NCBI GenBank assembly: GCA_947626745.1
Contig: CANQTF010000010.1
Location: forward strand, 1 to 64,000
Length of the DNA: 64,000 bases
DNA from: an uncultured Lachnospiraceae bacterium
GTDB lineage: Bacteria; Bacillota; Clostridia; Lachnospirales; Lachnospiraceae
Reading direction: 5' to 3'
The notes beneath the pieces are model-generated. The model saw nothing but the letters and a program-made list of their open reading frames with translations, did not search any database and was not told the origin of the DNA. The position numbers and the translations under genes were made by a program. This document shows, piece after piece, positions 6,444 to 58,394 of the stretch. The stretch's first letter is position 1. Each line of letters starts with the position of its first letter.

Positions 6444-6474
6444 TTGACAGAAGCATTCTGGGGGGGGGTATAAT
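6444..6474 (+). promoter_or_regulatory. Promoter with a nine-G spacer tract (probable phase-variable promoter)
   Basis: Consensus -35 TTGACA at 6444-6449 and consensus -10 TATAAT at 6469-6474 are separated by 19 bases. The last nine spacer bases are all G (6460-6468), directly abutting the -10 box. Loss of two Gs would give the optimal 17-base spacing. It reads toward the membrane protein gene at 6528. Confidence 0.75.
6460..6468 (+). repeat. G9 homopolymer tract in promoter spacer
   Basis: Nine consecutive Gs between the -35 and -10 boxes, one of five G9 runs in this window. Slippage would change promoter spacing and so promoter strength in graded fashion. Confidence 0.9.
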
Positions 6475-6527
6475 GGGAACAGCTTGCATAGATAGCAAGC
6501 GCAAATAAAGCGAGGGAGAGAAAAGTA

Positions 6528-7202
6528 ATGTATAAGGTACTGAGGAATTTTTGTATAGGGATTCTGGTCGTGCTGCTCATATTGATGTATGGCGGCAGTG
6601 CGCTGACGAAAATGGCGTTTAGCGAGCCGGCGGATATTTATGAAGACGCCTTGACCGATGCGGGCCGTTTAAAGAGAGGATTTGCCATTGAAACGGAGCT
6701 TCCTTTTCTGATGGAATGCTTTGGCACGGAAACGCAAACCCAGACAAACGGTTACGATAATTCGACCTTGATAGGCGATGCTACCTATTATTATATCATG
6801 CCCATATGGGTAGGAGAAGAAACCTATTATGTGGCGCTTGAAACAAGTTCAAAGAATGACAATTATGATATGCTGAAAGAACTCAGCAAGAGTACAATGG
6901 ACTGGATCTATATGGAATCGGAAGAGGTCGATGCGGCACCGGTCCATATTACAGGCGGATTGGTGACATTAGATGACGAATTGTACAAATACATGAAACA
7001 ATGGTTTGCAGAGACAGGGTGGTTTGCAGACGAGGCAGATATTGAGAAGTATGTCTTACCGCTTAGCTTCAGCGAAGAGAATTATACGAGTCTGAAGATA
7101 GTGTTTTTTGTGCAGCTTGCGATCGCCGTTGCGCTTTTGGGCGCGATCATCATTTTTTCGAGGAAAGAGAAAAAGGCTGCGGAGAGCGCCGTTTCCGATT
7201 GA
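6528..7202 (+). CDS. Hypothetical membrane-anchored protein with two terminal transmembrane helices
   Basis: 224 residues, family not recognised. One hydrophobic helix near the N-terminus (IGILVVLLILMYGGS, about 11-26) and one near the C-terminus (VFFVQLAIAVALLGAIIIF, about 190-209) flank a ~160-residue acidic extracellular-type domain; the end is basic (SRKEKK), giving an N-in/C-in topology by the positive-inside rule. GAGGGAGAG lies just before ATG 6528. It stands alone: the promoter with the G9 spacer tract lies ~50 bases upstream and a strong terminator follows at 7226-7274. Its place behind a phase-variable promoter suggests a surface-exposed or phage- or host-interacting role, but nothing in the sequence names it. 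Confidence 0.75.
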   Translation: MYKVLRNFCIGILVVLLILMYGGSALTKMAFSEPADIYEDALTDAGRLKRGFAIETELPFLMECFGTETQTQTNGYDNSTLIGDATYYYIMPIWVGEETYYVALETSSKNDNYDMLKELSKSTMDWIYMESEEVDAAPVHITGGLVTLDDELYKYMKQWFAETGWFADEADIEKYVLPLSFSEENYTSLKIVFFVQLAIAVALLGAIIIFSRKEKKAAESAVSD

Positions 7203-7225
7203 TAAAAGAACGTTATTTAACAAGG

Positions 7226-7274
7226 GAGTACTGCCCTATAACTATTTTGCAGTTATAGAGCGGTACTCTTTTTT
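7226..7274 (+). terminator. Rho-independent terminator after the membrane protein
   Basis: GAGTACTGCCCTATAACT (7226-7243) pairs with AGTTATAGAGCGGTACTC (7251-7268) around a 7-base loop, followed by six or more Ts. Confidence 0.9.
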
Positions 7275-7285
7275 ATATTGCCGAA

Positions 7286-7318
7286 TTGTTGCTCATACCC
7301 CGTTGTGTTATATACAAC
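7286..7318 (+). promoter_or_regulatory. Promoter and overlapping operator of the restriction regulator
   Basis: -35-like TTGTTG (7286-7291), 16-base spacer, -10-like TTATAT (7308-7313). The -10 is bracketed by GTTGT (7302-7306) and ACAAC (7314-7318), the pentamers seen in the two upstream repeats. This fits autoregulation by the small XRE protein, as in controller (C) proteins of restriction systems. Confidence 0.45.
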
Positions 7319-7350
7319 AATTGAATACTTTAAATCAAGGAGGTACGGAA

Positions 7351-7581
7351 ATGATACAACAAGATTTTGGACGGGCCTGTAAGAAGCTGAGAAAGATGAA
7401 AGGATTAAGCCAAGAGAAATTTGCCTTATTGATAGAAATGGATCGCACCTACTATGCTTCCGTGAAATCCGGGAAAAGAAACATTTCCATACAAAATATC
7501 AAGAAAATCGCGGACGGATTTGAAATACCGATGTCTCAATTATGCAGGACGATGGAAGAAGAGGGAAAGCATCATGATTAA
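7351..7581 (+). CDS. XRE-family regulator, probable restriction-system controller protein
   Basis: 76 residues, essentially one Cro/C1 helix-turn-helix domain (FGRACKKLRKMKGLSQEKFA, then MDRTYYASVKSGKRNISIQN, then IKKIADGFEIPMSQL), with no ligand domain. Size and position directly before an overlapping endonuclease gene match controller proteins that delay nuclease expression until methylation is complete. ATG 7351 is set by AAGGAGG at 7337-7343, although the frame is open much further upstream. The 3' end overlaps the endonuclease gene by 8 bases. The local sequence is AT-richer than the flanking genes, consistent with acquisition as a mobile module. Confidence 0.85.
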   Translation: MIQQDFGRACKKLRKMKGLSQEKFALLIEMDRTYYASVKSGKRNISIQNIKKIADGFEIPMSQLCRTMEEEGKHHD

Positions 7582-8302
7582 CACGTTAGATGATTTTATC
7601 AGAGAGTACAAAAAGATTCAGGAGATGGGTTGGATCACTACGCATCGTTCCGGTAATACGGGTATCGGCAAAACATTGGAGGATCTGCTTGGTATTAGGG
7701 AAAATAACTATCAAGGGCCGGATTTCGGTGAATATGAGTTAAAAGCTTCGCGATGCGATTCAAATAGCATGTTGACCCTTTTTACAAAGGCTCCGATGCC
7801 TAAGGGATCGAATACTGTTTTGCGGCTGGCATTTGGCTATGCAAGTTCTGCGTACGATAATGACGAAAAAGTTCTTCATGCTACATTAAATTCTTTGGGC
7901 TTTGTTAAGATTGCGGATACAGGTCATAAACTCAAAGTCGATTATTTGGCGAAAGATCCGGACGCTAAGATCATAATAGAATCAGAATCCGGATATGCCA
8001 ATGCTTACTGGAGCGTTGAAGATTTGCGAAAGAATTTTGAGAGGAAATATCCATATAAATTAGTATACGCCAAAGCGGAATCAAGAGGCCGTGGAAGCAG
8101 TGAGCAATTCCGTTATAGAGAAGCATATGTATGTGACGGATTCAGCTATGACGGTTTTCTCGATTTATTAAGAGAAGGCCGTATCTATATTGATCTTAGG
8201 ATAGGGCAGTATCCTGATGGCAGAACGCATGATCATGGAACGGGATTTAGAATAAGAGAAGCCGATCAGGATGCGCTGTTCAAAAAGCATCAGATTTGTT
8301 AA
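7574..8302 (+). CDS. Type II restriction endonuclease, MvaI/BcnI family
   Basis: 242 residues. The N-terminal block HRSGNTGIGKTLEDLLGI followed by NNYQGPDFGEYELKASR (about 48-62) is the MvaI/BcnI signature; the Asp, Glu and Lys of GPDFGEYELK are the expected metal and catalytic residues. Later TLFTKAPMP and a C-terminal HDHGTGFRIR segment agree with the family, whose characterised members cut CC-W-GG or CC-S-GG sequences as monomers, one strand at a time. ATG 7574 overlaps the regulator stop and has GAGGG upstream. The partner methyltransferase converges on it at 8329. The exact recognition sequence cannot be told from the sequence. Confidence 0.9.
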   Translation: MINTLDDFIREYKKIQEMGWITTHRSGNTGIGKTLEDLLGIRENNYQGPDFGEYELKASRCDSNSMLTLFTKAPMPKGSNTVLRLAFGYASSAYDNDEKVLHATLNSLGFVKIADTGHKLKVDYLAKDPDAKIIIESESGYANAYWSVEDLRKNFERKYPYKLVYAKAESRGRGSSEQFRYREAYVCDGFSYDGFLDLLREGRIYIDLRIGQYPDGRTHDHGTGFRIREADQDALFKKHQIC

Positions 8303-8310
8303 AGATTAAG

Positions 8311-8337
8311 AAAGAGTGAGGAAGCGCCTCACTCTTT
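8311..8337. terminator. Bidirectional terminator between endonuclease and methyltransferase
   Basis: AAAGAGTGAGG (8311-8321) pairs with CCTCACTCTTT (8327-8337) around a 5-base loop, with A-rich and T-rich flanks. It includes the methyltransferase stop codon on the minus strand. Confidence 0.85.
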
Positions 8338-9771
8338 TCTGAATACGACAATCAATTCTTTGCACATCGTCTTGGCTTTTTTTCCGGAAACATTGGTGGG
8401 TGAATTAAGGCTGGGCATTACTTTATTGCTGATAGCGCGCCTCATGGTCATTATGTGTTTTAAACCAAGATTCCTGCCTAATTCTACCAGTATTTGGTCT
8501 GTTTTGAGAGACACCTCTTTGACAGTTCTGTTGCCTACGACCCAAAACTGATAAGCGTTTGTTCTGCATTTTTTGGTCACGGCCTTCAACACGTCATTTA
8601 AGTCCTTGTAAAAACTAAATACATCTCCTGCGCGCTCTAAGTTTTCCGAGGGTTTTAGTATTTCTGAAAGCGCATGATCAAGCGTCGCGCTCGGTAAACA
8701 GTTTGCAAATCCCTTTTTAAATGGAGTGCCGCCCATGAGATTTTTATCGATATCAATGATCTCTTTATAAGAAAGAGTGTCATAATCACACCATTGGAGT
8801 GAAACTCTGCTAAATTGTCCGTACGCTACGGTCGTTCGGCTGTCACCGTAGGGAGGGGAGGTTATAACGATATCGATGGACTGATCCGGAACGCTGCTTA
8901 GAAGCCGGGAATCTTCGCGGCTGAGGTGTACGGAGCCTAAAACACGATCCTCTGCTCTCTTGATAAAAGCTTTCATTTTACATATGTTTGAAGATAAAGT
9001 ATTGAGATAGGTGGATCTTACATCAGGCTTATAAGCAGCTACTTTTTCAGGCGTCATTCGGTACATCTTAAATTCACCGTTTCGCCTGTTGGAAACGAGT
9101 CGGGTCGTTTCGGAAAAAGCTATCATGAAATAATCTTGTAAATCTGTATCTGCGATCTCGCAAATAAGATTTCTGATTATTTGAAGCTCTAAAATGCAGC
9201 GGGGCACAAACCAAAACCCTACGCTCTGTATCTCCGGGATAATAAGGTCGGAGTTATGGGCTGATAAATACGCATTTAAAATACTGCTGGCATTTGCGCC
9301 CCAGTTGGTCTTGTCGTTAATTTTCGCGGTAATATCATAATTATTTTCAAAGATGTAATCATCGATACCGGCTAAGACGACAGAGTAAAGGTCATATTTT
9401 TGATCGAGTTTATTGGCGAAGTCGTTAAATGCTTTGTCGAGATCGCAATGAAGAGGTGTTGTTTTTGCTTTGGATATTTTGTAGGCAAGCGGATTCAGGT
9501 CATTTCCGTATACTTCTGTACATCCTGCTAACAAGCCCTCTAAGAGAACCGTTCCGGATCCCATGAACGGATCAAGGAGAGATGACGAGGAACGATATTT
9601 GTTCACGATCTTGAGGATATTGCGGCTTATGGGATATACCATGACGGCCGGATAATTGTGAATGCTGTGGGTCAGTTCCTTGGTATCGTCATTTTTAAAA
9701 TCCCAGAAACCCTCCGGAAGATTGGAAAATTCCTCGATCAGTTCTTTGTCTATGATTCTTGCTTCGTCCAT
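8329..9771 (-). CDS. Type II DNA methyltransferase (SPPY motif, probably N4-cytosine)
   Basis: 480 residues. The S-adenosylmethionine motif DPFMGSGTVLLEGL lies near residues 67-80 and the catalytic motif TSPPYGDS near 302-309, an order of beta class amino-methyltransferases. SPPY, rather than DPPY, is most often found in N4-cytosine enzymes, and known partners of MvaI and BcnI are N4-cytosine methyltransferases. It would protect the host from the convergent endonuclease. An AAGG-type site precedes ATG 9771. Codon use is AT-richer than in adjacent loci, so the whole 7.3-9.8 kb module appears to have been transferred together. Confidence 0.9.
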   Translation of the reverse strand: MDEARIIDKELIEEFSNLPEGFWDFKNDDTKELTHSIHNYPAVMVYPISRNILKIVNKYRSSSSLLDPFMGSGTVLLEGLLAGCTEVYGNDLNPLAYKISKAKTTPLHCDLDKAFNDFANKLDQKYDLYSVVLAGIDDYIFENNYDITAKINDKTNWGANASSILNAYLSAHNSDLIIPEIQSVGFWFVPRCILELQIIRNLICEIADTDLQDYFMIAFSETTRLVSNRRNGEFKMYRMTPEKVAAYKPDVRSTYLNTLSSNICKMKAFIKRAEDRVLGSVHLSREDSRLLSSVPDQSIDIVITSPPYGDSRTTVAYGQFSRVSLQWCDYDTLSYKEIIDIDKNLMGGTPFKKGFANCLPSATLDHALSEILKPSENLERAGDVFSFYKDLNDVLKAVTKKCRTNAYQFWVVGNRTVKEVSLKTDQILVELGRNLGLKHIMTMRRAISNKVMPSLNSPTNVSGKKAKTMCKELIVVFRKE

Positions 9772-9910
9772 TGATCAAACCTTGTTTGTTTCTAATCGCT
9801 ATCATTCATAACAAAAATCTTCGGGGTCAATTGTAGCACATCAGGCATGCGATGTCCATCAAATTCCTTTCCCGATCCCGCAGCCTTTTGGTAAATATAG
9901 ATAAATTGAG

Positions 9911-9936
9911 GAAACTATTTTCGTAAAAATAGTTTC
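9911..9936. promoter_or_regulatory. Operator-like palindrome upstream of the tetR-family promoter
   Basis: GAAACTATTTT (9911-9921) and AAAATAGTTTC (9926-9936) form a perfect 11-bp inverted repeat with a 4-base centre, ending exactly at the -35 box of the promoter for the TetR-family gene. It shares the GAAACT half-site with the palindrome at 9967-9998. Confidence 0.6.
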
Positions 9937-9965
9937 TTGCGGCGCATAGCACGACATGATATGAT
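9937..9965 (+). promoter_or_regulatory. Promoter of the alpha-galactoside operon
   Basis: -35 TTGCGG (9937-9942), 17-base spacer, -10 TATGAT (9960-9965). It is tightly flanked on both sides by palindromes with a shared GGAAACT element, a layout expected for repression by the TetR-family protein encoded just downstream. Confidence 0.6.
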
Positions 9966-9966
9966 T

Positions 9967-10006
9967 AAGGAAACTGAAAATTAAAAATCAGTTTCCTTAT
10001 TTTTTT
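9967..10006 (+). promoter_or_regulatory. Second palindrome: operator and/or attenuator in the leader
   Basis: AAGGAAACTGA (9967-9977) pairs perfectly with TCAGTTTCCTT (9988-9998), followed by ATTTTTTT. It lies immediately after the -10 box, so it can be a repressor site at the start of transcription; as RNA it also has the shape of a Rho-independent terminator. Both roles are possible. Confidence 0.55.
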
Positions 10007-10045
10007 CAGAAACGCCATACAGCTTGCTGACAACGGGGGATAGAT

Positions 10046-10627
10046 ATGGATCTGAGAGAAGAGATTTTAAAAGGTACGATACGGATCTTTCGTGAAAAGG
10101 GTCTGAAATTTACGATGGACGACATCGCGGAGCGGTTGAAGATCAGCAAGAAGACGCTGTACAAGGTCTTTGACGACAAGGAGGCGCTGTTCCTTGCTAT
10201 GGTGGATTACATGTTCGACACGATCAAGGAGAGCGAGCAGGCGGTGGTGGACGACGACAGCCTGAGCACTGTGGAAAAAGTACACAGGATCTTGGGCGTG
10301 CTGCCGGAAGGGTATAAAGATGTGGATCTGCGCCAACTTTATCTATTGAAGGACAGATATCCGAAGATATACAAGCAGGTGGAGCTGCGCTTGGAGACAG
10401 GCTGGGAGACGACGATCGAGCTGATCGAGCGCGGCATTGCGGAGGGCAGTATCGTGCCGGTCAGGATCCCGATCCTCAAGATGATGCTGGAAGCGTCCTT
10501 GGAGCAGTTTTTTCAGCGGGATATCCTGATCCGAAACGAGATCTCCTATCAGGACGCGCTTGACGAGGTGGTCCGGATCTTAATGGAAGGAATCAAAGTA
10601 CACAAACAGGAGGGAAATGAGGTATGA
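10046..10627 (+). CDS. TetR/AcrR-family transcriptional regulator
   Basis: 193 residues. The N-terminal DNA-binding domain is clear: GTIRIFREKGLKFTMDDIAE, then LKISKKTLYKVFDDKEALF (helix-turn-helix about 25-47). The rest is a helical ligand domain with no family-specific signature. GGGGGA precedes ATG 10046. It overlaps the next gene by four bases (ATGA) and heads the operon that includes a GPH sugar transporter and an alpha-galactosidase. The promoter is straddled by two palindromes with shared half-sites, so it is probably an autorepressor of this operon. The inducer is not known. Confidence 0.9.
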   Translation: MDLREEILKGTIRIFREKGLKFTMDDIAERLKISKKTLYKVFDDKEALFLAMVDYMFDTIKESEQAVVDDDSLSTVEKVHRILGVLPEGYKDVDLRQLYLLKDRYPKIYKQVELRLETGWETTIELIERGIAEGSIVPVRIPILKMMLEASLEQFFQRDILIRNEISYQDALDEVVRILMEGIKVHKQEGNEV

Positions 10628-12111: not shown

Positions 12112-12116
12112 CGCAC

Positions 12117-13487: not shown

Positions 13488-13497
13488 GGAGATCGAG

Positions 13498-15873: not shown

Positions 15874-15943
15874 CATGACGGCCGCATTGACGATTGCATT
15901 TTGGCGTGGTAGTCTTATAGAGGAGTAGAAGGCGGGTTAAGGC

Positions 15944-16822: not shown

Positions 16823-17547
16823 TGAACAAACAGGCGGATCAGGGCAGTTACAGACATGAGTATAAATACGTGTGCGATGCAAGGCAGAATGCCGTATTGA
16901 AGGTGCGGGCCGCCGGTTTTTTGCGGCGCGACAGCCACTGCAGCGCGGACGGGTGCTATCACATCAGAAGCCTGTATTTCGATGATCTCGAGGACGGCTG
17001 TTTTTATGAGAATGAGGGCGGAACGGATCTGAGAGACAAATACCGTATCCGCATCTATAACGCGGATCCCGACAGGATCATTCTGGAAAAGAAAAGCAAG
17101 GTCAGAGGCATGACGCGCAAGACGGCAAGCCCGATCCCGCAGCAGCTGTGCCGGCAGATGATGGAGGGGCGAAGCGTCAGCTTCAGCGCGGGCATGGGAC
17201 TTTCCGCGCCGCTGACACGGCTTCTTCTGGAAATGCAGGAAAAAGTTTTACGGCCGGTGGTCATTGTGGATTATGTCCGGTATCCTTTCGTAGACCCTAA
17301 CGGAAACGTGCGCGTCACGTTCGACGAGGCCCTTGCCTCCTCCAACGATATCGAGAGATTTCTGGAGAAAGAGATCGCTGCCAGACCGGTCATGGAGGCG
17401 GGACAGAGTATTTTGGAGGTCAAGTGGGACAGCTATCTGCCGGATCATATCAGAGGACATTTACAGACGGACGCTCTGCAGAGGAGCAGCTTTTCAAAAT
17501 ATTATCTGTGCAGGAAATACAACGTTTACGGAGGTGTGAGGATATGA
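16822..17547 (+). CDS. VTC-domain polyphosphate polymerase-like protein
   Basis: 241 residues, the whole length being a VTC (triphosphate-tunnel) domain. Diagnostic stretches are SYRHEYKYVCDARQN (substrate-binding Glu/Lys), IRSLYFDDLEDGCF, LRDKYRIRIYNADPDRIILE, KKSKVRGMTRK and VIVDYVRYPF, ending with MEAGQSILEVKWD. Bacterial VTC proteins are thought to polymerise polyphosphate or act on a related phosphate donor beside membrane partners. No membrane segment is present in the protein itself. ATG 16822 shares a base with the previous stop and its own stop overlaps the next gene by four bases, so the three genes are translationally coupled. Usual partners CotH and DUF4956 are not in this window. 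Confidence 0.85.
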   Translation: MNKQADQGSYRHEYKYVCDARQNAVLKVRAAGFLRRDSHCSADGCYHIRSLYFDDLEDGCFYENEGGTDLRDKYRIRIYNADPDRIILEKKSKVRGMTRKTASPIPQQLCRQMMEGRSVSFSAGMGLSAPLTRLLLEMQEKVLRPVVIVDYVRYPFVDPNGNVRVTFDEALASSNDIERFLEKEIAARPVMEAGQSILEVKWDSYLPDHIRGHLQTDALQRSSFSKYYLCRKYNVYGGVRI

Positions 17548-19091
17548 ATCTCCCCAAAGCTCTCAGGCGGCCGTCAGGGGCCGCGGCCGCGGCGTGGTTT
17601 CTGTTTTTCCTGTCGCTTCTGCCGATCCTTTATCTGGGGCTGCACAACCATGCTACCGGTGATGATTACTGGTACGGCGTACACACATATAGGGGACTGG
17701 TGGAGGGCGGCCTGATCGGCGCGCTGAAAGGCTCGCTCCGGACGGTGTCGGAGTTCTATGAGAATTGGCAGGGGACATGGTTTACCATGTTCCTGTTTAC
17801 CTTATCGCCGCATCATTTTCATGAAAACGGGTATGTCCTGACGGTTTTTATCTCACTGGGTCTGCTGATCGGCAGCTTTACCTGCCTGTCCCGTTACTAT
17901 CTGGTCAAAATGCTGGATTTCAGGGCCGACGCGGTCATCGTGTGCAGCGTCCTGTGTCTGGCTATCCAGTATATTCCGAGAACGACTTCGGGGATCTTCT
18001 GGTTTAACGGCGTCATGCACTATTCCGTGCCGCTCTTTCTGGCCGTGCTGGCGGTGATCCACAGTCATAGGTTTGTGCAATACGGGCGTTGGAAGGACTA
18101 TGCGGTGCTTTTTATCTGCTTTACGCTTCTGGGGGGGGGTAGCTATCTGGCGCCGGTGGCCGCGACGCTGGCGGTCTGCCTGATCTTGGCAAGCAGGATC
18201 AGGATCCGTGCGTTTGACCTGCGAAACCGGAAGCTTTCTTTTGCGTACGATTGGAAGAACCTCTGGATATTGGCCGCTTTTGCGGCGGAGCTTGTCGGAC
18301 TGGTCATCAGCTTTCTCGCGCCCGGCAACCGCGTGCGGGGCGGAGAGGAATTTGGGGCGGATCTGAAGTGGGGCTTACAGTGCGTCTACTATGCGATCGA
18401 CCGCGGCATCTATCTCGGGGAAGACTATTTCCTGAAGAATCCGGTGACGACCGTGGTCTATATTTTACTGGCGGTTTTGATCTGGAGCGAGATGTGGAGA
18501 AATATCGGCAGAGATTTCCGCTTCCGTTTCCCGCTGCTTTTTGTCGTCTGTATGAACGGGATCTATTGGGCCAGCTATGTGCCGGAGATCTATGCCAGAT
18601 CTGACGTGTCGGGCGGCGTTCCCAACACGTATTTTCATATTTTTCTCATCATAACGCTGGCAAACATGATCTATGTGACCGGCTGGCTGCAGCGGCGGCT
18701 GGTACGATATTGGCACAGAAAGGCCGAGCGCGCGGGTCTGACCTATGAGGAGACGGCTGCAAAGAGCATATGGGGACCGGAGCGGTTCAAAAAGCGGCTG
18801 ATGATACCGGCGATGGCGGTGGGGCTGGCGCTCCTGCCGGCGGCCGTACACTACAGCGGGCTCACCACGACGGACGGCTACTGTATGGAATACATTACAA
18901 GCGGGAAAATGGCGCAGTATGCCAAGGTGCGGAAGGAGCAGTACAGACTCCTGCATGACAGCACGGAGGCGGACGTGATCGTGCCTGAGGTCTGCGGGGA
19001 TCAGTATCCGCTGTGCCATATGCCCCTGCCGGACGACAATCAGAAAGCATACTATAATAAGAACAGCATCAATATACGGCAGGTGGACTAA
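17544..19091 (+). CDS. DUF6056-like polytopic membrane protein carrying a G9 tract
   Basis: 515 residues with about ten hydrophobic helices. The first extracytoplasmic loop holds HATGDDYWYGVHTY (about 36-49), the acidic pair expected in GT-C-fold glycosyltransferases that use lipid-linked sugars; the architecture matches DUF6056 proteins. ATG 17544 overlaps the VTC stop. A run of nine Gs at 18131-18139 encodes LLGGGSY (about 195-201). With ten Gs the next codon is TAG; with eight a TGA follows within about 17 codons, so slippage would remove the C-terminal 60%. A surface polymer or glycan role is inferred from fold and context. Confidence 0.75.
   Translation: MNLPKALRRPSGAAAAAWFLFFLSLLPILYLGLHNHATGDDYWYGVHTYRGLVEGGLIGALKGSLRTVSEFYENWQGTWFTMFLFTLSPHHFHENGYVLTVFISLGLLIGSFTCLSRYYLVKMLDFRADAVIVCSVLCLAIQYIPRTTSGIFWFNGVMHYSVPLFLAVLAVIHSHRFVQYGRWKDYAVLFICFTLLGGGSYLAPVAATLAVCLILASRIRIRAFDLRNRKLSFAYDWKNLWILAAFAAELVGLVISFLAPGNRVRGGEEFGADLKWGLQCVYYAIDRGIYLGEDYFLKNPVTTVVYILLAVLIWSEMWRNIGRDFRFRFPLLFVVCMNGIYWASYVPEIYARSDVSGGVPNTYFHIFLIITLANMIYVTGWLQRRLVRYWHRKAERAGLTYEETAAKSIWGPERFKKRLMIPAMAVGLALLPAAVHYSGLTTTDGYCMEYITSGKMAQYAKVRKEQYRLLHDSTEADVIVPEVCGDQYPLCHMPLPDDNQKAYYNKNSINIRQVD
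18131..18139 (+). repeat. G9 homopolymer tract in the DUF6056-like gene
   Basis: Nine consecutive Gs read CTG GGG GGG GGT. The gene is in frame at this length. Gain of one G creates an immediate TAG. Confidence 0.9.
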
Positions 19092-42150: not shown

Positions 42151-42219
42151 AATTTTGGTTTCCATGTTAATATAGTACCATAACATGCCGAATAAATCTA
42201 CGGAAAGAATTCGGCGGCA

Positions 42220-42228
42220 GGGGGGGGG
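42220..42228 (+). repeat. G9 homopolymer tract between divergent glycosyltransferase operons
   Basis: Nine Gs in the 122-base divergent region between the minus-strand start (42150) and the + strand start (42273), 45 bases before the latter. It lies in the probable 5' leader or promoter of the + operon. ATG 42185 opens a frame through the tract (out of frame with the 42273 gene at nine Gs, in frame at eight), but it has no ribosome-binding site. Confidence 0.88.
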
Positions 42229-42272
42229 AAGTCCGGCCGCCGAACGGCATGCGCGGAAGGGGAGGACGATAC

Positions 42273-42695
42273 ATGGACGCGGACAGCTTGATGAAGGATG
42301 ATGTTTTCTGGCAAAAGATGAATGCGCTCTTTGCGGCGCGCGACTATGACTGGATTACCGTACTGACGGATATCGAGCACAATGCGGAGCACAGCGACGA
42401 CGTGGCTTTGATGTACTATCTGCGGACGACGTATATTCAAGAGAAAAACGGCCCGGGGCAAAAGACAATCTTGGATAAGGTGGGCTCGCTGGAGGAAGTA
42501 TACAGACGGTATACGGCGTTAAAATTCTATCTCAGGCGGATCGAGTACGACCTGATGGACGGGGATATGACGTCGTTCTTTGAATTTGTAGCCTCCTATC
42601 AGGTGTCCGCGCAGGAGATCATGGAGATGATGAAATGCTGTGTCGCGCAGGAACACATGGATAAAGTCGGCCGCAGGATACAGGGCGCGCTGTGA
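42273..42695 (+). CDS. Small protein related to the linker region of the next glycosyltransferase
   Basis: 140 residues, acidic and helical, no known domain and no membrane segment. Its C-terminal half (EEVYRRYTALKFYLRRIEYD, FFEFVASYQVSAQEIMEMMK) aligns with residues ~535-600 of the following glycosyltransferase (LADRYREVKFGLYRLEYDIA, FLRLLQEGRLTEECLEQMIQ). It thus looks like a free-standing copy of the linker module. GGGGAGG precedes ATG 42273. The next gene starts 15 bases after its stop. A partner, regulatory or scaffold role in the glycosyltransferase complex is a guess. Confidence 0.7.
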   Translation: MDADSLMKDDVFWQKMNALFAARDYDWITVLTDIEHNAEHSDDVALMYYLRTTYIQEKNGPGQKTILDKVGSLEEVYRRYTALKFYLRRIEYDLMDGDMTSFFEFVASYQVSAQEIMEMMKCCVAQEHMDKVGRRIQGAL

Positions 42696-42709
42696 GGAGG
42701 GGAAGAGAC

Positions 42710-45700
42710 ATGGACGATAAGCTGTTTTGTTTCATCATGTGCAGCAATAACCGATGGTACGCGGAAGAATGCATGCACTATATCAACCGTCTGCATGTTC
42801 CGGAAGGATACCGCATTGAAGTGCTCACGGTGGAGGACGCGGCGTCTATGACGGCGGGTTACAATGAAGCGATGCAGAGTTCTCAGGCAAAATATAAGGT
42901 GTATATGCATCAGGATACCTTTATCATCAACTGCAATTTCATACAGGACTGCCTGAATATCTTCGGAAGCGATCCGAGGATCGGGATGATTGGCAACGTG
43001 GGCTGTAAGAAGATGCCGGTCATCGGCGTTATGTGGGAAACGAAGCGCTGCGGCAAGCTGTATGAGACCCATATCGTCGCGACGGAGAGATGCGAATTTG
43101 AAGAGGCGGTGGAGGGAACCTATACTGCGGTGGAGGCGATCGACGGGTTTATCATGATCACCCAGTATGATGTTCCGTGGCGCGAGGATCTGTTCGATAA
43201 GTGGGATTTCTATGACGCGTCGCAGAGCATGGAATTTATCAGGCGGGGTTATAAAGTCGTAGTTCCCCACATGGACGAGCCCTGGTGCGTCCATGACTGC
43301 GGGTTTATCAACTTGAAGAACTACGAGGGGGAGAGGGTCAAATATGTGCAGGAATATCTGGTGAACATGCACAAGATAGAGATCATCGCCGCCGTAAACA
43401 ATGAGGCATACTGGGAAGAGTGCGTCCGCTATATCCGCAGACTTAAAGTACCCGAGGGCTATGAGCTGTCGTGTCGGGGCATCCGCGGGGCATCATCGAT
43501 GCCGGAGGCTTACAATCAGGGATTGAAGGATTCGGACGCCAAATACAAGATTTATATACATCAGGACACGTTTCTGATCCGGCCGGATCTGCTGCAGCAG
43601 CTTATCGCTATTTTTACGGCGCATCCGGACATCGGCATGGTCGGGGTCATCGGGAACAGCGAATGGCGGCGCGACGCTGTCGTGATGAAGGCGAGAGCCA
43701 CCGGGCGGACAATGGGCTGGAACGGCACATGCCAGAATGATATCAATGCGCAGGAGGGATCCGGCAGCGGCCTGTGGGACGTGGCGGCGATAGACGGTAT
43801 GTTCATGGCGACCCAGTATGACATTCCGTGGCGGGAGGATATCTTGAAGGGCTGGGATTTCTATGACTGTTCGCAGTCGATGGAATTTCGCATCAAGGGG
43901 TACCGCGTGGCGGTCCCTTATCAGGAGACGCCCTGGTGTCTGCACGACTGCGGGCCCAGCAAGCTGCAAAATTATGATGAGAACCGGAAGGCATTCTGCG
44001 AGGCATACGCACAGTACGGCTTTGTCTATCGGGAAGAGGACAGGCAGGAGCTGGAGGCATGGAAAAGAGAGACGAGCGGAGAGGCTTGGGAAGCGTCGAA
44101 GGAGCTGCTGCGAAGACTGCCGGAGCTGACGGGACAGCGGAGGATCGACGAGCTAAAGGACATGCTGGCGCGGGCGGGAGAAACCGGTATGGAATTTCCC
44201 GAGTTATCTGTCCTAGAGCAGCTTCTTGCGATCTGGGGGGGGGAGATGAAGGCACACGGCAGAGAAGTGTTCTGGGAGGGCTGCGCCGATTATGCGGCGC
44301 TGGCGGACAGGTACAGGGAGGTCAAATTCGGACTGTACCGTCTGGAGTATGATATCGCGCAGCCGGATTCGCCTTTCCTGCGTCTGCTGCAGGAGGGGCG
44401 GCTGACGGAGGAATGTCTGGAGCAGATGATACAAAGCAGCGTACACGACAAACGTAAGGTAAAGGATAAGCTGCGGGAAATCACGGGAGCCGGAAGCGGG
44501 GAAGAGAAGGAGGGCATGAAGCTGCTCCTGTACGCATGGGGCGCCAACAATGAAAGGGTGTTTGCAGACAATCTGGAACAAGCCGGCTTTCAGCTTGTCC
44601 GATACGATAAGCCCTGCAGACATTATACGAGAGATGTGGAGCTGGCGGCGGATATGATACCCTATATCCATGCGCAGCACGTGGAAGCGGTCGTTTCCTT
44701 CAACTATTTTCCGATCATCTCCATGATCTGCGACACCTGCCGGATACCGTACTTCGCGTGGGTGTACGACTGCCCGCATTTTACGCTCTATGCCAGACAG
44801 ATCATGCTGCCGTGCAACCACATCGGGATCTTCGACAGGGAAATGGCGAGGCATCTGCAGGAGGTCTATCAGGTCCCGCATGTTTTCCATGCGCCGCTGT
44901 CGGTGGATACGGAGCATTTTGACAGAATGATCCGCGGAACGCAGGGAATATTCGGCGGGGAAGGGCAGGGCCCGCATGAGAAGGCGGCGGACAAGTATCG
45001 GTGCGACGTTTCTTTTGTGGGATCTCTGTATACGGACGAACACAATTACTATGAGACGCTGTTGAGCGCCGGAGAGCAGGAAATGCTCCGGCCGCTGGTC
45101 GAGCGGCAGTGCTTCCGCTATGACAGGGACTGCATCGGCGAGGCGCTTGCGGCAGAAGAAATTGACACAAGTGTCATAAAAGATAAAATGAGAGCTGCGG
45201 GGCTGATGCTGGGAGAAGATTATTTCGATCGGTCAGAGGACGATATCCTTCGCGCGGCCGTTCTGGACAAGAAGGTGACTGTGGAAGAGCGCGGCAGCCT
45301 GTTACAGGAAGTCGCAAGGCGTTACGGACAGACATACCGCGTGGCGTTCTATACGGAATCCGATGTGAGCAGGTATCCGCTGCTGCAAAAGTATCACGGG
45401 GGCGTTGTGGATTATCATCTGCAGATGCCGCGGGTGTTTGCGGGCAGCAGGATCAATCTGAACATTACCCTGCGCTCGATCCGTTCCGGCATACCGTTAA
45501 GGGTACTTGACATTATGGCCTGCGGCGGCTTTGTCCTGACAAACAGACAGGCGGAAATAGATGCGTATTTTGAGGAAGGCAAAGAGCTTGTATGCTATGA
45601 CGGCATGGAGGACTGCATGGACAAGATAGCGTACTATCTGGAGCATGAAGAGGAGCGGGCGCAGATCGCTGCGGCCGGCCGGCTTGCCGTGCGGGAGCGG

Positions 45701-45748
45701 TTCGGATACCAAAAAGGCATTATGACCTTGTTCGGCATAGAAGCTTAG
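42710..45748 (+). CDS. Tandem StrF-like GT2 x2 + CgeB-type glycosyltransferase with G9 tract
   Basis: 1012 residues. Two copies of a StrF-like GT2 domain (about 1-220 and 225-450) share INRLHVPEGYRIEV / IRRLKVPEGYELSC, KYKVYMHQDTFII / KYKIYIHQDTFLI, EAIDGFIMITQYDVPWREDL / AAIDGMFMATQYDIPWREDI and PWCVHDCG / PWCLHDCG. A helical linker (about 455-600) leads to a CgeB-type unit (about 605-1005) with FNYFPIISMICDTCRIPYFA, CDVSFVGSLYTDEH and GSRINLNITLRSIRSGIPLR. A run of nine Gs at 44235-44243 encodes IWGGEM (~508-513) in the linker. Eight Gs give TGA two codons later, ten Gs a stop ~35 codons later, so slippage would release the two GT2 units without the CgeB unit. ATG 42710 has GAGGAGGGG upstream. 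Confidence 0.85.
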   Translation: MDDKLFCFIMCSNNRWYAEECMHYINRLHVPEGYRIEVLTVEDAASMTAGYNEAMQSSQAKYKVYMHQDTFIINCNFIQDCLNIFGSDPRIGMIGNVGCKKMPVIGVMWETKRCGKLYETHIVATERCEFEEAVEGTYTAVEAIDGFIMITQYDVPWREDLFDKWDFYDASQSMEFIRRGYKVVVPHMDEPWCVHDCGFINLKNYEGERVKYVQEYLVNMHKIEIIAAVNNEAYWEECVRYIRRLKVPEGYELSCRGIRGASSMPEAYNQGLKDSDAKYKIYIHQDTFLIRPDLLQQLIAIFTAHPDIGMVGVIGNSEWRRDAVVMKARATGRTMGWNGTCQNDINAQEGSGSGLWDVAAIDGMFMATQYDIPWREDILKGWDFYDCSQSMEFRIKGYRVAVPYQETPWCLHDCGPSKLQNYDENRKAFCEAYAQYGFVYREEDRQELEAWKRETSGEAWEASKELLRRLPELTGQRRIDELKDMLARAGETGMEFPELSVLEQLLAIWGGEMKAHGREVFWEGCADYAALADRYREVKFGLYRLEYDIAQPDSPFLRLLQEGRLTEECLEQMIQSSVHDKRKVKDKLREITGAGSGEEKEGMKLLLYAWGANNERVFADNLEQAGFQLVRYDKPCRHYTRDVELAADMIPYIHAQHVEAVVSFNYFPIISMICDTCRIPYFAWVYDCPHFTLYARQIMLPCNHIGIFDREMARHLQEVYQVPHVFHAPLSVDTEHFDRMIRGTQGIFGGEGQGPHEKAADKYRCDVSFVGSLYTDEHNYYETLLSAGEQEMLRPLVERQCFRYDRDCIGEALAAEEIDTSVIKDKMRAAGLMLGEDYFDRSEDDILRAAVLDKKVTVEERGSLLQEVARRYGQTYRVAFYTESDVSRYPLLQKYHGGVVDYHLQMPRVFAGSRINLNITLRSIRSGIPLRVLDIMACGGFVLTNRQAEIDAYFEEGKELVCYDGMEDCMDKIAYYLEHEEERAQIAAAGRLAVRERFGYQKGIMTLFGIEA
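44235..44243 (+). repeat. G9 homopolymer tract between modules of the large glycosyltransferase
   Basis: Nine Gs read TGG GGG GGG GAG, in frame. Located in the linker between the tandem GT2 domains and the CgeB-type domain. Confidence 0.9.
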
Positions 45749-45765
45749 AGCAGGGAAAGCGGCGC

Positions 45766-49485: not shown

Positions 49486-49538
49486 GGCAGAAAGCCTCCG
49501 TGTATATGTATATTTGCAGATCCGGGTCTGCTATCTAT

Positions 49539-49567
49539 ATAGTACCATTTTCTGTAAGGGACGACAA
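49539..49567 (-). promoter_or_regulatory. Promoter of the 49485-45766 glycosyltransferase operon
   Basis: On the minus strand: -35 TTGTCG (49567-49562), 17-base spacer, -10 TACTAT (49544-49539). The stretch ATGGTACTATAT around the -10 is repeated base for base upstream of the other minus-strand glycosyltransferase operon (about 42171-42182). A 14-bp perfect palindrome AGTACTATAGTACT lies at 49609-49622. Confidence 0.55.
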
Positions 49568-49784
49568 TAATATCTTTTCGGGAAAAAGCGGCGCAGCCGC
49601 CGCAGAACAGTACTATAGTACTAGACTTTTTCCACAAAAACGACGGGTCAAATAAGGAATAAATTGCCAAAGATATCGATATTTCGTTTAAAATGTGGTT
49701 TTGGAGTTTTTTTTTCGGACTATCTGTGATATACTTCGACTAAGACACTAAGAAACCGCAGCATCATACAAATGGAGGGCTTAT

Positions 49785-51265: not shown

Positions 51266-51305
51266 CGGCGGCGCAGGGCGCACAGGGAAATATGACGGCG
51301 GAGTA

Positions 51306-51334
51306 TTGACAAAGAGCAGTGCTCTGCCTATAAT
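51306..51334 (+). promoter_or_regulatory. Sigma-A promoter with palindromic spacer before the carboxyltransferase
   Basis: TTGACA (51306-51311), 17-base spacer, TATAAT (51329-51334): full consensus. The spacer contains AGAGCA-G-TGCTCT (51314-51326), a perfect inverted repeat, so a repressor could bind between the boxes. Confidence 0.8.
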
Positions 51335-51426
51335 AGAGAAAGATAATTTGAATATCAAAGTATTGGATAATCAAATAATTAAGAGCTTCGGGAAAGATTC
51401 CCTTTTTAGGAGGAGAACGGCGGACG

Positions 51427-53043: not shown

Positions 53044-53070
53044 GCGGACGGATATCGGACAGCACAAAAA

Positions 53071-53097
53071 AGAGTTGGCCGGCGGGCCAACTCTTTT
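53071..53097. terminator. Bidirectional terminator between carboxyltransferase and FliD-like genes
   Basis: AGAGTTGGCC (53071-53080) pairs with GGCCAACTCT (53085-53094) around GGCG, preceded by AAAA and followed by TTTT. Confidence 0.92.
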
Positions 53098-53126
53098 CTT
53101 ATGTGTCGATCTGTGATCCTGCTGTC

Positions 53127-54440: not shown

Positions 54441-54662
54441 AGTCCCCCTCCTTTCTTCCGTGAATGTTCCCGAGAAATGTCCCTCGGGCGATGACGTCCT
54501 CTCATGGCTGTCCGTTGCCGGCGGACTGTCATCGGTGGGTGATGCAATAGGCTGTTATCTGTCTTCTTATAATAATATCCGATAATCTGGTAAGCCTATT
54601 ATATCACCGTATCCGTCTGAAACGCAACAAAAATCGCACAAAAATACCTATTTATATTTCTT

Positions 54663-54690
54663 ATATCGAAGCCGGGCCGCGAAAAGTTTA
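54663..54690 (-). promoter_or_regulatory. Sigma-D-like promoter for the FliD-like gene
   Basis: On the minus strand: TAAA (54690-54687), 16-base spacer, TTCGATAT (54670-54663). One base longer than consensus and with TT in place of GC. The gap of ~220 bases to the start codon holds no gene. Confidence 0.45.
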
Positions 54691-54731
54691 TAGGATACAG
54701 AAAAATATATGCAGATATTCGCAAAATACGG

Positions 54732-54760
54732 TTGACTTCACGGAAAGCGTGTGATATATT
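54732..54760 (+). promoter_or_regulatory. Promoter of rpmG-secE-nusG-rplKA
   Basis: TTGACT (54732-54737), 17-base spacer, TATATT (54755-54760), about 80 bases before the rpmG start. Confidence 0.8.
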
Positions 54761-54845
54761 GTTGGGGCAAGATAAGATTCAGGTCTTTTTTTTATGCTCA
54801 AAAATAACGGAAACACAGTTGACGAATACACACGGAGGTATCGAA

Positions 54846-54995
54846 ATGCGTACAAGGATCACATTGGCATGCACAGAGTGCAAACAGCGTAACTACAATA
54901 CGACCAAAGACAAGAAGACCCATCCCGACAGAATGGAGACGAAGAAGTATTGCAGATTCTGCAAGACACATACCTTGCATAAGGAGACGAAATAA
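54846..54995 (+). CDS. rpmG: 50S ribosomal protein L33
   Basis: 49 residues: [40 protein letters not shown]. It keeps both C-x-x-C pairs (CTEC and CRFC), so it is the zinc-binding form of L33. GGAGG lies before ATG 54846. Normal first gene of the secE-nusG run in Firmicutes. Confidence 0.95.
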
Positions 54996-55026
54996 TCGCC
55001 GGTCGTTTTGATGAAAGGAGTATGAC

Positions 55027-55245
55027 ATGGGAGATTCTGCTAAATCGGGCAAGGAATCGAAGATCACGAAGTTCTGGAACGGTGTGAAGACCGAGTTTAA
55101 GAAAATTACATGGCCGAACAAAGACGATCTCATCAAGCAGTCCATCGCGGTCGTTGTGATCTCCGTTGTGATCGGGGCGATCATCACGATACTGGACTTT
55201 GGTCTGCAGTACGGCGTGGATTTCCTCACGACGCTCTCATTTTAG
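55027..55245 (+). CDS. secE: Preprotein translocase subunit SecE
   Basis: 72 residues with one transmembrane helix (VVVISVVIGAIITILDFGLQ, about 41-60) after the conserved KITKFWNGVKTEFKKITWPN amphipathic helix. Essential part of the SecYEG channel. AAAGGAG precedes ATG 55027. Between rpmG and nusG in the usual order. Confidence 0.95.
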   Translation: MGDSAKSGKESKITKFWNGVKTEFKKITWPNKDDLIKQSIAVVVISVVIGAIITILDFGLQYGVDFLTTLSF

Positions 55246-55286
55246 ACGGCTCCGAAACATTGGACTGGGAAAGGCGTGGTATTAGT

Positions 55287-55802
55287 ATGGCAGAAGCAAA
55301 TTGGTATGTCGTTCATACCTATTCCGGGTATGAGAACAAGGTGAAGGCCAATATCGAGAAGACGATAGAAAACAGGCATCTGGAGGAAGAGATCCTGGAG
55401 GTCAGGGTGCCGATGCAGGACGTCATGGAGATGAAGAACGGTACGCGCAGAACGGTGCAGAAGAAGATGTTCCCCGGATATGTCCTGATCAATATGGTCA
55501 TGAATGACGATACATGGTATGTGGTCAGGAATACCAGAGGCGTGACGGGATTCGTAGGGCCGGGCAGTAAGCCGGTACCGCTCACCGAGGCGGAGATGAA
55601 GCCTCTCGGCATCAGGATGGAGAATATGACCGTGGACTTTGCGGAGGGCGATACCATCGCGGTAGTCGCCGGCGTCTGGAAGGACACGATCGGCGTTGTA
55701 CAGAGGATCGACTACGGCAAGCAGACGGCGACCATCAATGTCGAACTGTTCGGCAGAGAGACGCCCGTGGAGATCAGCTTCGCGGAAGTCAGAAAAATGT
55801 AA
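55287..55802 (+). CDS. nusG: Transcription elongation/antitermination factor NusG
   Basis: 171 residues: NGN domain (ANWYVVHTYSGYENKVKANI, RTVQKKMFPGYVLINMVMND, VRNTRGVTGFVGPGSKPVPL) and KOW domain (EGDTIAVVAGVWKDTIGVVQ). It rides on RNA polymerase and controls pausing. ATG 55287 gives the standard MAEANWYVVHT start; the frame is open upstream into secE without homology. 41 bases after secE. Confidence 0.96.
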   Translation: MAEANWYVVHTYSGYENKVKANIEKTIENRHLEEEILEVRVPMQDVMEMKNGTRRTVQKKMFPGYVLINMVMNDDTWYVVRNTRGVTGFVGPGSKPVPLTEAEMKPLGIRMENMTVDFAEGDTIAVVAGVWKDTIGVVQRIDYGKQTATINVELFGRETPVEISFAEVRKM

Positions 55803-55836
55803 TGCAGGTATTTATCCCCTTGCGGGTTAAATATAT

Positions 55837-55878
55837 TGTGGGAGTAACGCTCCGCGGAGACGTTACGCCCGTACCACA
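55837..55878 (+). promoter_or_regulatory. Structured leader before rplK (probable L1/L11 autoregulation site)
   Basis: Nested inverted repeats TGTGG (55837-55841)/CCACA (55874-55878) and GTAACG (55844-55849)/CGTTAC (55861-55866) form one long hairpin in the nusG-rplK spacer. In many bacteria L1 binds the mRNA here to repress L11 and L1 synthesis; the assignment is by position and structure. Confidence 0.55.
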
Positions 55879-55898
55879 TTATTTTAGGAGGTGCCATT

Positions 55899-56324
55899 AT
55901 GGCAAAGAAAGTAGAAGGATACATCAAGTTACAGATTCCTGCCGGCAAAGCTACGCCGGCGCCGCCGGTCGGTCCCGCACTCGGACAGCACGGCGTGAAC
56001 ATCGTTGAATTTACCAAACAGTTCAACGCCAAGACAGCCGACAAGGGTGATGTCATCATCCCGGTCGTTATCACTGTCTATGCGGACAGAAGCTTTAGTT
56101 TCATCACAAAGACTCCCCCTGCCGCGGTCCTTTTGAAGAAAGCATGCAATATCAAATCCGGATCGGCTACCCCGAACAAAGCGAAGGTTGCCACGATCTC
56201 CAAGGATAAGCTGCGCGAGATCGCAGAGACGAAGATGCCTGATCTGAATGCCGCGAGCGTTGAGGCGGCTATGAGCATGATCGCCGGAACCGCAAGAAGC
56301 ATGGGTATCACAGTAGAAGAGTAA
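55899..56324 (+). CDS. rplK: 50S ribosomal protein L11
   Basis: 141 residues: [60 protein letters not shown] are invariant L11 segments; the C-terminal domain ([20 protein letters not shown]) binds the GTPase centre of 23S rRNA. TAGGAGGTG precedes ATG 55899. Confidence 0.97.
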
Positions 56325-56337
56325 TGGAGGATTTGAC

Positions 56338-57027
56338 ATGAAACATGGTAAGAAATATACAGATGCAGCGAAGCTGGTAGATCGCTCCGTTCAGTATGAT
56401 ACGGCTGAGGCGATCGCACTGGTCAAGAAGACGGCGACGGCAAAATTCGACGAGACCGTGGAAGTCCATATCAGAACAGGCTGTGACGGGCGTCATGCCG
56501 AGCAGCAGATCCGCGGTGCGGTGGTACTGCCGAACGGAACCGGTAAGAGCGTAAAAGTATTGGTATTTGCCAAAGGCGATAAGCTGGCTGAGGCGGAAGC
56601 GGCGGGCGCCGACTATGTAGGCGGCGAGGAGCTGATCCCGAAGATCCAGAACGAAGGCTGGCTTGATTTCGACGTGGTCGTTGCCACGCCCGATATGATG
56701 GGCGTCGTGGGCCGTCTCGGTAAAGTCCTCGGCCCTAAGGGCCTGATGCCCAACCCGAAGGCCGGAACGGTAACGATGGACGTCACGAAGGCGGTCAGCG
56801 ATATCAAAGCCGGTAAGATCGAGTACAGACTGGACAAGGCGAACATTATCCATGTGCCGGTCGGCAAGGTCTCCTTCGATGAAGCGAAGCTGCAGGAGAA
56901 CTTCGATGCGCTGATGGAGGCGATCGTTAAGGCGAAACCTTCAGCACTGAAAGGCCAGTACCTGAGAAGCATCACGCTGACCACCACAATGGGCCCCGGC
57001 GTGAAGGTCAACACGGCGAGATACTAA
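56338..57027 (+). CDS. rplA: 50S ribosomal protein L1
   Basis: 229 residues: [60 protein letters not shown] and [20 protein letters not shown]. Forms the mobile L1 stalk at the E site and can repress its own operon. TGGAGGA precedes ATG 56338. It is followed directly by a terminator, not by rplJ as is usual. Confidence 0.97.
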
Positions 57028-57034
57028 TTTGCAT

Positions 57035-57069
57035 AAAAGATTCCTGTCTAAAGGGATAGGAATCTTTTT
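57035..57069 (+). terminator. Terminator after rplA
   Basis: AAAAGATTCCT (57035-57045) pairs with AGGAATCTTTT (57058-57068) with a 12-base loop and a T run. It ends the rpmG-rplA unit. Confidence 0.9.
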
Positions 57070-57104
57070 TTATACCGACTTTGGGTCGGAAACGGAGGAA
57101 AGCC

Positions 57105-58394
57105 ATGGACAGGGTGTGGAGCAGATTGAAGAAAACGGCGGTCACTTTGGGCGCGGGAGGCTGTATCGGCTTCCTGCTGATCTTCCTCGTCTATATGCTT
57201 CCGGTGGATCGCATGAGAGCCAATGCGGCCGCCTCGCTGGAGCTGTTTGACAAGTGGGACTGGAATCCGCAGATCATAAGCGGGTATGATGCCACGACGG
57301 TGGACACGTACACGGACGCATGGATGATGCGGATCGCCATATATGACGGGGACGAGTCGGTGCTGCAGAAATGCATGAGCAACTTCTATTACGGGTACAA
57401 CAATATGGAGATCGCGAACGGGCCGTGTGAGAGTCTGGCCGCCTACGTGAACGGTGTGCAAGGCTATCAAAGCTATTCATACGGCAGATACTGGCACGGC
57501 TATCTTGTGATCCTGAAGCCGCTTCTGCTTTTCTTTGATTACGGTGATATCATAGGTATTTTGAAATATGTGCAGCTTGCGCTGGTGGTCTTCTGCTGTG
57601 TCCTCATGGATCGGAAGAAGCTCACAAGATGCATTCCGTGTCTGTTGGCGATGCTCGCGTGTATCGAATCCGCCACGATCGGCATGTCGATGCAGTTTTC
57701 GTGGGTATTCCTGATCGCCATGATCTCGGTGATATGCTGTCTGCGCATCAAGGATACGGATTACTATGCTTTTTCCGTGGAACTGCTGTTTTTGATCACG
57801 GGTATGTGTACCGGTTATATGGATTTCCTGACTTATCCGCTGTTCACGCTGGGCGTGCCGCTCACCGTTATGCTGGTGCAGCGGGGCACGGCGGCCGGGA
57901 AGGGAAAGCTGTTCGCGGCGACCCTGCTGGATTCCGCATACTGGGCGCTGGGATATCTTGGCGTTTGGTTCATCAAATGGGTGTTGTGTACGGTCATCAC
58001 GGATGAGAATGTCATTTCGGATGCCTTGTATACGGTCATGTACCGCATGAGCGACGGCACACTGGAAGAAGAGATCGGCGTGTGGGATATCTGGAAGGAG
58101 AATCTCTTTGTGATAGGCAAGTGGCCCTATCTGCTGGCCTTTGTCTGCGCGGCGGCGTGGCTTTTGCTTGCGGGGGGGGGTAAGCTGTCGCGGCCGTCGG
58201 TCAAGACGACGCTCAGCTATCTGTTTGTCATTCTGCTGCCGTTTGTGTGGTATGCCTGTGTCAGACAGCATTCTTATGTACACAGCTTTATGGTATTCAG
58301 GGATCTGGGGATATCCGTCTTCGGCACACTGTGTTTCCTGATGCAACTCAGGGGAAGCACAACGCCTGTCAATGAGGTGAAAAAGGTGTTATAA
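57105..58394 (+). CDS. Polytopic membrane protein with G9 tract, inserted between rplA and rplJ
   Basis: 429 residues with about nine hydrophobic helices; family not recognised. The first helix (LGAGGCIGFLLIFLVYMLPV) is followed by a ~110-residue extracytoplasmic loop with acidic clusters (VDTYTDAWMMRIAIYDGDES) and HGYLVILKPLLLFFDYGDII, a layout recalling GT-C-type or polymer-exporting membrane proteins. GGAGGA precedes ATG 57105; an upstream ATG at 57081 is less well placed. Nine Gs at 58172-58180 encode LAGGGKL (~355-361). Ten Gs give an immediate TAA; eight Gs lead to a stop after the last helices are misread. Its neighbour encodes CapA. Confidence 0.75.
   Translation: MDRVWSRLKKTAVTLGAGGCIGFLLIFLVYMLPVDRMRANAAASLELFDKWDWNPQIISGYDATTVDTYTDAWMMRIAIYDGDESVLQKCMSNFYYGYNNMEIANGPCESLAAYVNGVQGYQSYSYGRYWHGYLVILKPLLLFFDYGDIIGILKYVQLALVVFCCVLMDRKKLTRCIPCLLAMLACIESATIGMSMQFSWVFLIAMISVICCLRIKDTDYYAFSVELLFLITGMCTGYMDFLTYPLFTLGVPLTVMLVQRGTAAGKGKLFAATLLDSAYWALGYLGVWFIKWVLCTVITDENVISDALYTVMYRMSDGTLEEEIGVWDIWKENLFVIGKWPYLLAFVCAAAWLLLAGGGKLSRPSVKTTLSYLFVILLPFVWYACVRQHSYVHSFMVFRDLGISVFGTLCFLMQLRGSTTPVNEVKKVL
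58172..58180 (+). repeat. G9 homopolymer tract in the inserted membrane protein gene
   Basis: Nine Gs read GCG GGG GGG GGT, in frame. One extra G makes the next codon TAA. Confidence 0.9.

Follow-up and report, generated by a model that had tools for sequence, protein, structure and literature searches.

Runs of nine guanines as candidate phase-variation loci in an uncultured Lachnospiraceae bacterium

Phase variation at poly-G tracts has been reported in Campylobacter, Neisseria and Bifidobacterium. For the Campylobacter phasome, the PhasomeIt survey gives a peak length of nine, 53% of the tracts being G9 and 26% G10, with 77% of them in open reading frames (ORFs) (PMC6321876). The tracts of C. 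jejuni are described as tending to gain at lengths of 8-9 and to lose at lengths of 10-11, and those of Neisseria as ranging from 7 to 19 nt (PMC4085013); poly-G phase variation is also reported for the Neisseria porA promoter (PMC3639595). In Bifidobacterium breve, a G-tract is reported to join two ORFs of a pilus surface gene through replication slippage, two loci having been studied, one of them mainly G11/G12 (PMC9187656). Among the literature matches listed, no title or abstract opening described poly-G phase variation in Lachnospiraceae. Here, we analysed a 64,000-nucleotide stretch from an uncultured Lachnospiraceae bacterium (assembly GCA_947626745.1, contig CANQTF010000010.1, positions 1 to 64,000), hereafter the window, which carries five runs of exactly nine G (G9). 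It belongs to contig 10 of a 2.69-Mb assembly in 49 contigs, 83.5% complete (G000; G-numbers designate the genomes compared and L-numbers the loci read; all genomes are assemblies, many of them fragmented). Very probably, these runs and their counterparts elsewhere in the genome are contingency (phase-variation) loci of the Campylobacter and Neisseria kind. The first-pass annotation of the window had proposed phase variation; this reading is kept as the best explanation in view of the contingency-locus anatomy described below, whereas the idea of a set peculiar to this region finds no support.

The set resembles the Campylobacter phasome by its many G runs per genome, its peak at nine and its frame-shift and promoter types, but it occurs in a Firmicute host and, judged against the survey figures, has a narrower mode, 45 of the 50 G8-G10 runs of G000 being G9 (PMC6321876). 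A further difference is that here the mode varies between clades of one genus, with mutS present. As reported for Neisseria, G runs occur in a promoter as well as in coding sequences (PMC3639595, PMC4085013); the tract lengths cited there cover 7-19 nt, whereas those found here are mostly of one length (PMC4085013). Bifidobacterium breve is likewise a Gram-positive gut commensal with a G run in a surface gene, but the source deals with two loci, whereas in the present genomes a common length is found at tens of loci each (PMC9187656).

G9 runs in the window and in the genome

The five runs are located on the + strand at 6460-6468, 18131-18139, 42220-42228, 44235-44243 and 58172-58180, exactly as first annotated. 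Counting run lengths over the whole window, we found eight G5 runs, no G6, G7 or G8 run, and then the five G9 runs. There is no run of six or more C, the longest being five, in agreement with the earlier remark that no run of nine Cs was noticed. The claim that chance would produce less than one G9 also holds, 0.61, 0.057 and 0.023 runs being expected under Markov models of order 1, 3 and 4, with Poisson probabilities of 4e-4, 5e-9 and 5e-11, respectively, for at least five. Order-3 simulations gave a mean of 6.0 G6-G8 runs, with a minimum of one in 200 simulations, as compared to none in the window. Base composition does not produce such a pattern, in which intermediate lengths are missing and a single length stands out.

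The excess is genome-wide. A scan of the whole 2.69 Mb, as suggested in the first-pass annotation, gave 45 G9, 4 G8 and 1 G10 runs, with at most 20 G6-G7 runs (217 G6 windows minus those arising from G8-G10). Forty of the 45 G9 runs lie outside the window and those of G9 or longer, 46 in all, are spread over 16 contigs, at about one run per 60 kb, which is at odds with a regional set. The strand bias is genome-wide as well: of the 49 runs of G7 or longer present in the window and in the G000 stretches retrieved, 48 are carried by the strand with positive GC skew. The runs are also oriented with respect to coding: for 217 runs in five genomes, the coding signal was on the G strand in 122 cases and on the C strand in 4, was mixed in 1 and was lacking in 90.

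Any G9 was found in 68 of 120 genomes sampled from the family, G000 included. G000 had the highest count, followed by genomes with 23, 20, 12 and 10. In a sample of 148 genomes from the class, 49 had any G9, the counts following that of G000 being 21, 17, 14, 10 and 10. Three genomes from another family of the class (G210, G245 and G300) contain 10-17 G9 each, nearly all in the form CG9T; in this lineage, distinct from that of G000, the motif is stricter.

Promoter spacers, reading frames and the genes concerned

Forty-eight G000 runs of at least G8 were read (the 45 G9, two of the four G8 and the G10) and assigned to classes by eye: 8 promoter spacers, 19 in-frame coding runs, 9 frame breaks (seven clear and two tentative, L011 and L030:6971), 7 leaders or 5′ regions and 5 unclear cases. 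Placement is such that a one-base change alters the frame or the promoter spacing in 19 + 7-9 + 8 of the 48. Together with the many glycan, surface and chemotaxis genes concerned, these promoter-spacer, in-frame and frame-breaking positions have the anatomy of contingency loci.

Promoter-spacer runs were defined by a run lying between TTGACA and a -10 element, with at most two mismatches in all. All 8 cases in G000 have an exact TTGACA, while 118 of 20,000 random positions passed the same scan, 40 of them with exact TTGACA. The spacers measure 19 nt (four), 16 nt (three) or 20 nt (one), and never 17-18 nt. Tract-free TTGACA promoters of the same stretches (-10 element with at most one mismatch) have spacers of 17-18 nt in 11 of 17 cases, and the usual optimum is 17 nt. 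As judged from their sequence, the tract promoters of G000 are therefore off the usual spacer optimum at the default run length. At the DUF4854 promoter, the 19-nt spacer is found in three species, despite a 2-nt shift of the run in one of them. Elsewhere, promoter-spacer runs account for 3/63 (G184), 1/51 (G187) and 1/28 (G123) runs, all with a spacer of 19 nt, and for 1/27 in G152, with a spacer of 18 nt and two mismatches. Among the five genomes, G000 is thus the only one in which the promoter type stands out.

Coding signal on either side of the runs was assessed by codon usage, with G4-5 runs as controls. Among runs with two-sided signal, the frame changes at 6 of 46 in G000 (2/12), G184 (2/19), G187 (2/8) and G123 (0/7), as compared to 28 of 1035 controls (Fisher P 0.002). 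No change was seen at the 10 tested runs of the G8 genome G152, where 26 of the 27 runs read are G8; inclusion of G152 gives 6/56. The 7 tested coding runs of G123, G10 except for one G11, are all in frame. Hence coding runs are mostly in frame at the run length of their own clade. At each of the frame breaks assigned by eye in G000, the other frame is open for at least 600 nt.

In two broken genes, codon-position constraint is seen before as well as after the run. A methyltransferase gene broken at G9 in two species (L007/L088) aligns without gaps over 900 nt, with mismatches by codon position of 11/7/18 before the run and, in the other frame, 11/7/34 after it. The DUF4956 gene, broken at G9 in three species (L018/L075/L103), has a similar codon-position bias on both sides. 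In both genes, no indel occurs in the 600 nt 3′ of the run and third-position mismatches are in excess in different frames on each side. The off-state genes thus appear otherwise intact and conserved. For a third broken gene (L011/L065), constraint is seen only 3′ of the run, merely 2-3 codons lying 5′.

DUF4956 was also retrieved by protein search, with no selection for runs, in six species, and was the only locus so searched that yielded orthologous runs. Run lengths are 0, 8, 9, 9, 9 and 9. The frame is open without a run in G183; in G186, a G8 is read in frame, and a second one-base difference about 40 nt further on breaks the frame; a G9 is in frame in G191 and out of frame in G000, G184 and G187. 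Both length and frame therefore differ between species at this locus.

The genes with runs include acyltransferases, GT1 and GT2 glycosyltransferases, MBOAT, a polysaccharide deacetylase, methyltransferases (FkbM, TylF and others), CotH, DUF2334, DUF6056, a large Ig-like protein, two chemoreceptors, TadZ, an EAL/GGDEF protein and a protein kinase; several have no family match. Many are of the surface or glycan type put forward in the first-pass annotation, but "all" is too strong genome-wide: a KAS III-like protein, an SDR, a solute-binding lipoprotein and a Mur ligase (run 196 nt upstream) look less surface-like.

Run length across the genus and competing explanations

Exact G8, G9 and G10 runs were counted in 77 congeneric species, many of which have few runs. 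Some genomes are dominated by G8 (G8/G9/G10 counts of 34/2/0 in G152 and 54/6/0 in G156), others by G9 (4/45/1 in G000, 8/81/6 in G187) or by G10 (3/2/28 in G123, 7/1/24 in G163). The mode is sharp in G000, where it comprises a fraction of 0.90 of the runs; of the 34 genomes with at least 20 runs, about half have a fraction of 0.5-0.7. When 40 of the 77 species, chosen mostly for their many runs, are placed on a mutS tree, the modal length requires 4 changes, as compared to a mean of 16.3 with shuffled labels. Thirteen G10 rows group together (100/99), as do 18 G9 rows (100/97), and a third group of 9 rows contains 6 G8 and 3 G9. The usual run length (8, 9 or 10) is thus a clade trait within the genus. 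Loss of mutS, as in a mismatch-repair-deficient lineage, was considered as the cause and found no support, 74 of the 77 genomes, G000 included, having a mutS that scores above the TIGR01070 cut-off. A tight length mode, differing by clade among 77 congeneric species although mutS is present, is the new element.

In the contingency-locus reading, slippage during replication would now and then add or remove one G. This would break or restore the reading frame at a coding run, alter the spacing of the -35 and -10 elements at a promoter run, and might alter translation at a leader run. Nine would be the default length of the genome, with the flanks setting the default state of each locus. Rarer length variants would give the opposite state, so that a clonal population would be mixed in surface and motility types. 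The sites, the default length and the default state are all predicted by this reading. If it is true, uncultured Gram-positive gut commensals possess a switch set of the size found in Campylobacter, which would act on surface glycan, chemoreceptor and adhesion-system genes.

Several points weigh against it. The lengths come from consensus assemblies, without read- or colony-level variation. Most coding runs (40 of 46 by the codon-usage test) are in frame. The 23 runs compared between G000, G184 and G187, at nine orthologous loci, are exactly G9 without exception, a count biased to nine by the choice of stretches through exact-G9 search, which is likely to have missed orthologues of other lengths. 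The preference for surface, glycan and motility genes is an apparent one, read from a list of families. Finally, mutS is present, a gene that Campylobacter is not known to have.

The constancy of the length could alternatively reflect programmed slippage of RNA polymerase or of the ribosome, the broken genes yielding a fixed share of full-length product from unchanged DNA. The RNA-DNA hybrid is about nine long, which would explain the fixed length. Such a mechanism would fit the sharing of G9 frame breaks among two or three species, with constraint persisting 3′ of the run, and also the G9 at nine orthologous loci, with the selection bias just mentioned. However, the 8 runs located between -35 and -10 elements would be left untranscribed from that promoter and have spacings unlike those of tract-free promoters, and the 19 in-frame runs would only lose product. 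Sister clades dominated by length 8 or 10, and species in which DUF4956 is in frame at the DNA level, also speak against RNA slippage, which we consider improbable. Still less likely is a replication-oriented chromosomal motif of the Chi or KOPS type, with its length fixed by a bound protein. The location of all but one of 49 runs on the strand with positive skew, the clade-specific length and the bias of the 3′ neighbour in some clades (T at 26 of 28 runs in G123, never T at the 27 read in G152) are in its favour. Yet motifs of that type are dense on the chromosome, as compared to about one run per 60 kb here; spacer and frame-break placement would be unexpected, neighbours are mixed in the G9 clade, and the orientation follows equally from G being on the coding strand. 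An artefact of homopolymer sequencing or assembly, which the use of assemblies throughout, many of them fragmented, might suggest, is hardly credible since the length mode tracks the mutS tree, the runs recur at orthologous sites in separate assemblies and a strand bias is not expected from assembly.

Returning to contingency loci, the length mode would naturally be read as a mutational equilibrium, because in C. jejuni the tendency is to gain at tract lengths of 8-9 and to lose at 10-11. We tentatively raise the possibility of a heritable genus-wide set-point that would govern the length of G runs at all loci in trans and would have moved between 8, 9 and 10 across clades. Slippage would be biased toward insertion below the set-point and toward deletion above it, with an unusually steep change; candidates would be replication or repair factors that differ between clades. 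If such shifts took place, frames and promoter spacings at all remaining loci would change together, so that loci would have had to be replaced or adjusted through their flanks. For bacteria in which mutS is retained, the clade-specific mode provides a natural comparison on what determines the length of homopolymers.

Window loci and side observations

All features of the window described here are on the + strand. The 6460 run lies in the 19-nt spacer of a sigma-70-like promoter (6444-6474; TTGACA at 6444-6449, TATAAT at 6469-6474), 5′ of a gene for a 224-amino-acid DUF6709 protein (6528-7202; Pfam PF20456, E 3e-16), which it presumably controls.

Three runs, at 18131, 44235 and 58172, are coding. 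The annotation that coding tracts are in frame at nine is correct for all three; its prediction of an early stop after a one-base change is verified in 4 of the 6 alternative frames (stop within 41 nt), the two others remaining open for 106 nt (44235) and 158 nt (58172, where 211 nt remain before the stop of the gene).

The 18131 run encodes the Gly-Gly of a TLLGG stretch in a 555-amino-acid protein (17424-19091). Relatives spell these glycines with mixed codons, and the run is absent at this position in 16 of 16; a G186 relative, L202, carries a separate G9 located some 30 nt further upstream. The label "DUF6056-like" given to this protein found no confirmation by profile search (no Pfam match at E 1), and Pfam and NCBIfam searches returned nothing usable for it or for the 57081 protein described below. 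L031 matches DUF6056 and has a GGANQMT stretch in common with relatives such as L206.

The 42220 run is located 20 nt 5′ of the ATG at 42249, in the leader of a 148-amino-acid ORF (42249-42695) for which family searches gave nothing convincing. It is surrounded by an inverted repeat, TTCGGCGGC / GCCGCCGAA (42210-42244). A stem is predicted, but it was discarded as a notable RNA structure, given a z of -1.38 and 19 of 200 shuffles folding equally well. Rfam matches in the window and 13 loci were confined to an L10 leader and a cobalamin riboswitch, both away from the G runs.

The 44235 run belongs to a modular glycosyltransferase of 1018 amino acids (42692-45748; Glyco_tranf_2_5, DUF3880 and Glyco_trans_1_2 domain matches). 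At this site, the window reads TGGGGGGGGGAG and the relative L034 reads TGGAACGCGGAG; the run is absent in 6 of 6 relatives spanning the site, five further relatives not spanning it. Orthologous sites without a run are often G-rich and irregular, as in GGGTGGGAG, GGAGGAGGG and GAGGGAGGA.

The 58172 run lies in the gene for a 437-amino-acid protein (57081-58394) with relatives in 8 of 13 congeners searched, the run being absent at this position in 11 of 11 relatives. Directly 3′ is a CapA-like PGA_cap gene (58402-59676; PF09587, E 3e-63). These two genes split the ribosomal L1 gene (56338-57027) from the L10 leader (60176-60305, RF00557).

Neighbour tallies and blastn of ±300 nt, no motif finder being run, gave no common flank among G000 runs. 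At L014 and L061, a G9 in two species has an identical 3′ flank followed by a short inverted repeat, AGATAGT...ACTATCT; in G000, this is the G9 located 196 nt 5′ of the Mur ligase ORF. The 3′ neighbour is T at 26 of the 28 runs read in G123 and A or C at all 27 read in G152, where the 5′ neighbour is C in 20. L102 (G187:C11:69600-78700) groups eight G9 in about 7 kb beside genes for a C5 cytosine methylase, an MT-A70 protein, an N6/N4 methylase and a PAPS-reductase-like protein; it may be a prophage or mobile island. Repeated paralogues (L048, L085, L087) hold some of the runs of G184 and G187. At L085 (G187:C1:12000-16400, - strand), tandem genes for Nif11-leader RiPP precursors, whose Pfam and NCBIfam matches are near the cut-offs and mostly below, carry a G run at the double-glycine leader/core junction. 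The frame after the run differs among three G9 copies and one G8 copy, consistent with a possible phase-variable peptide array.

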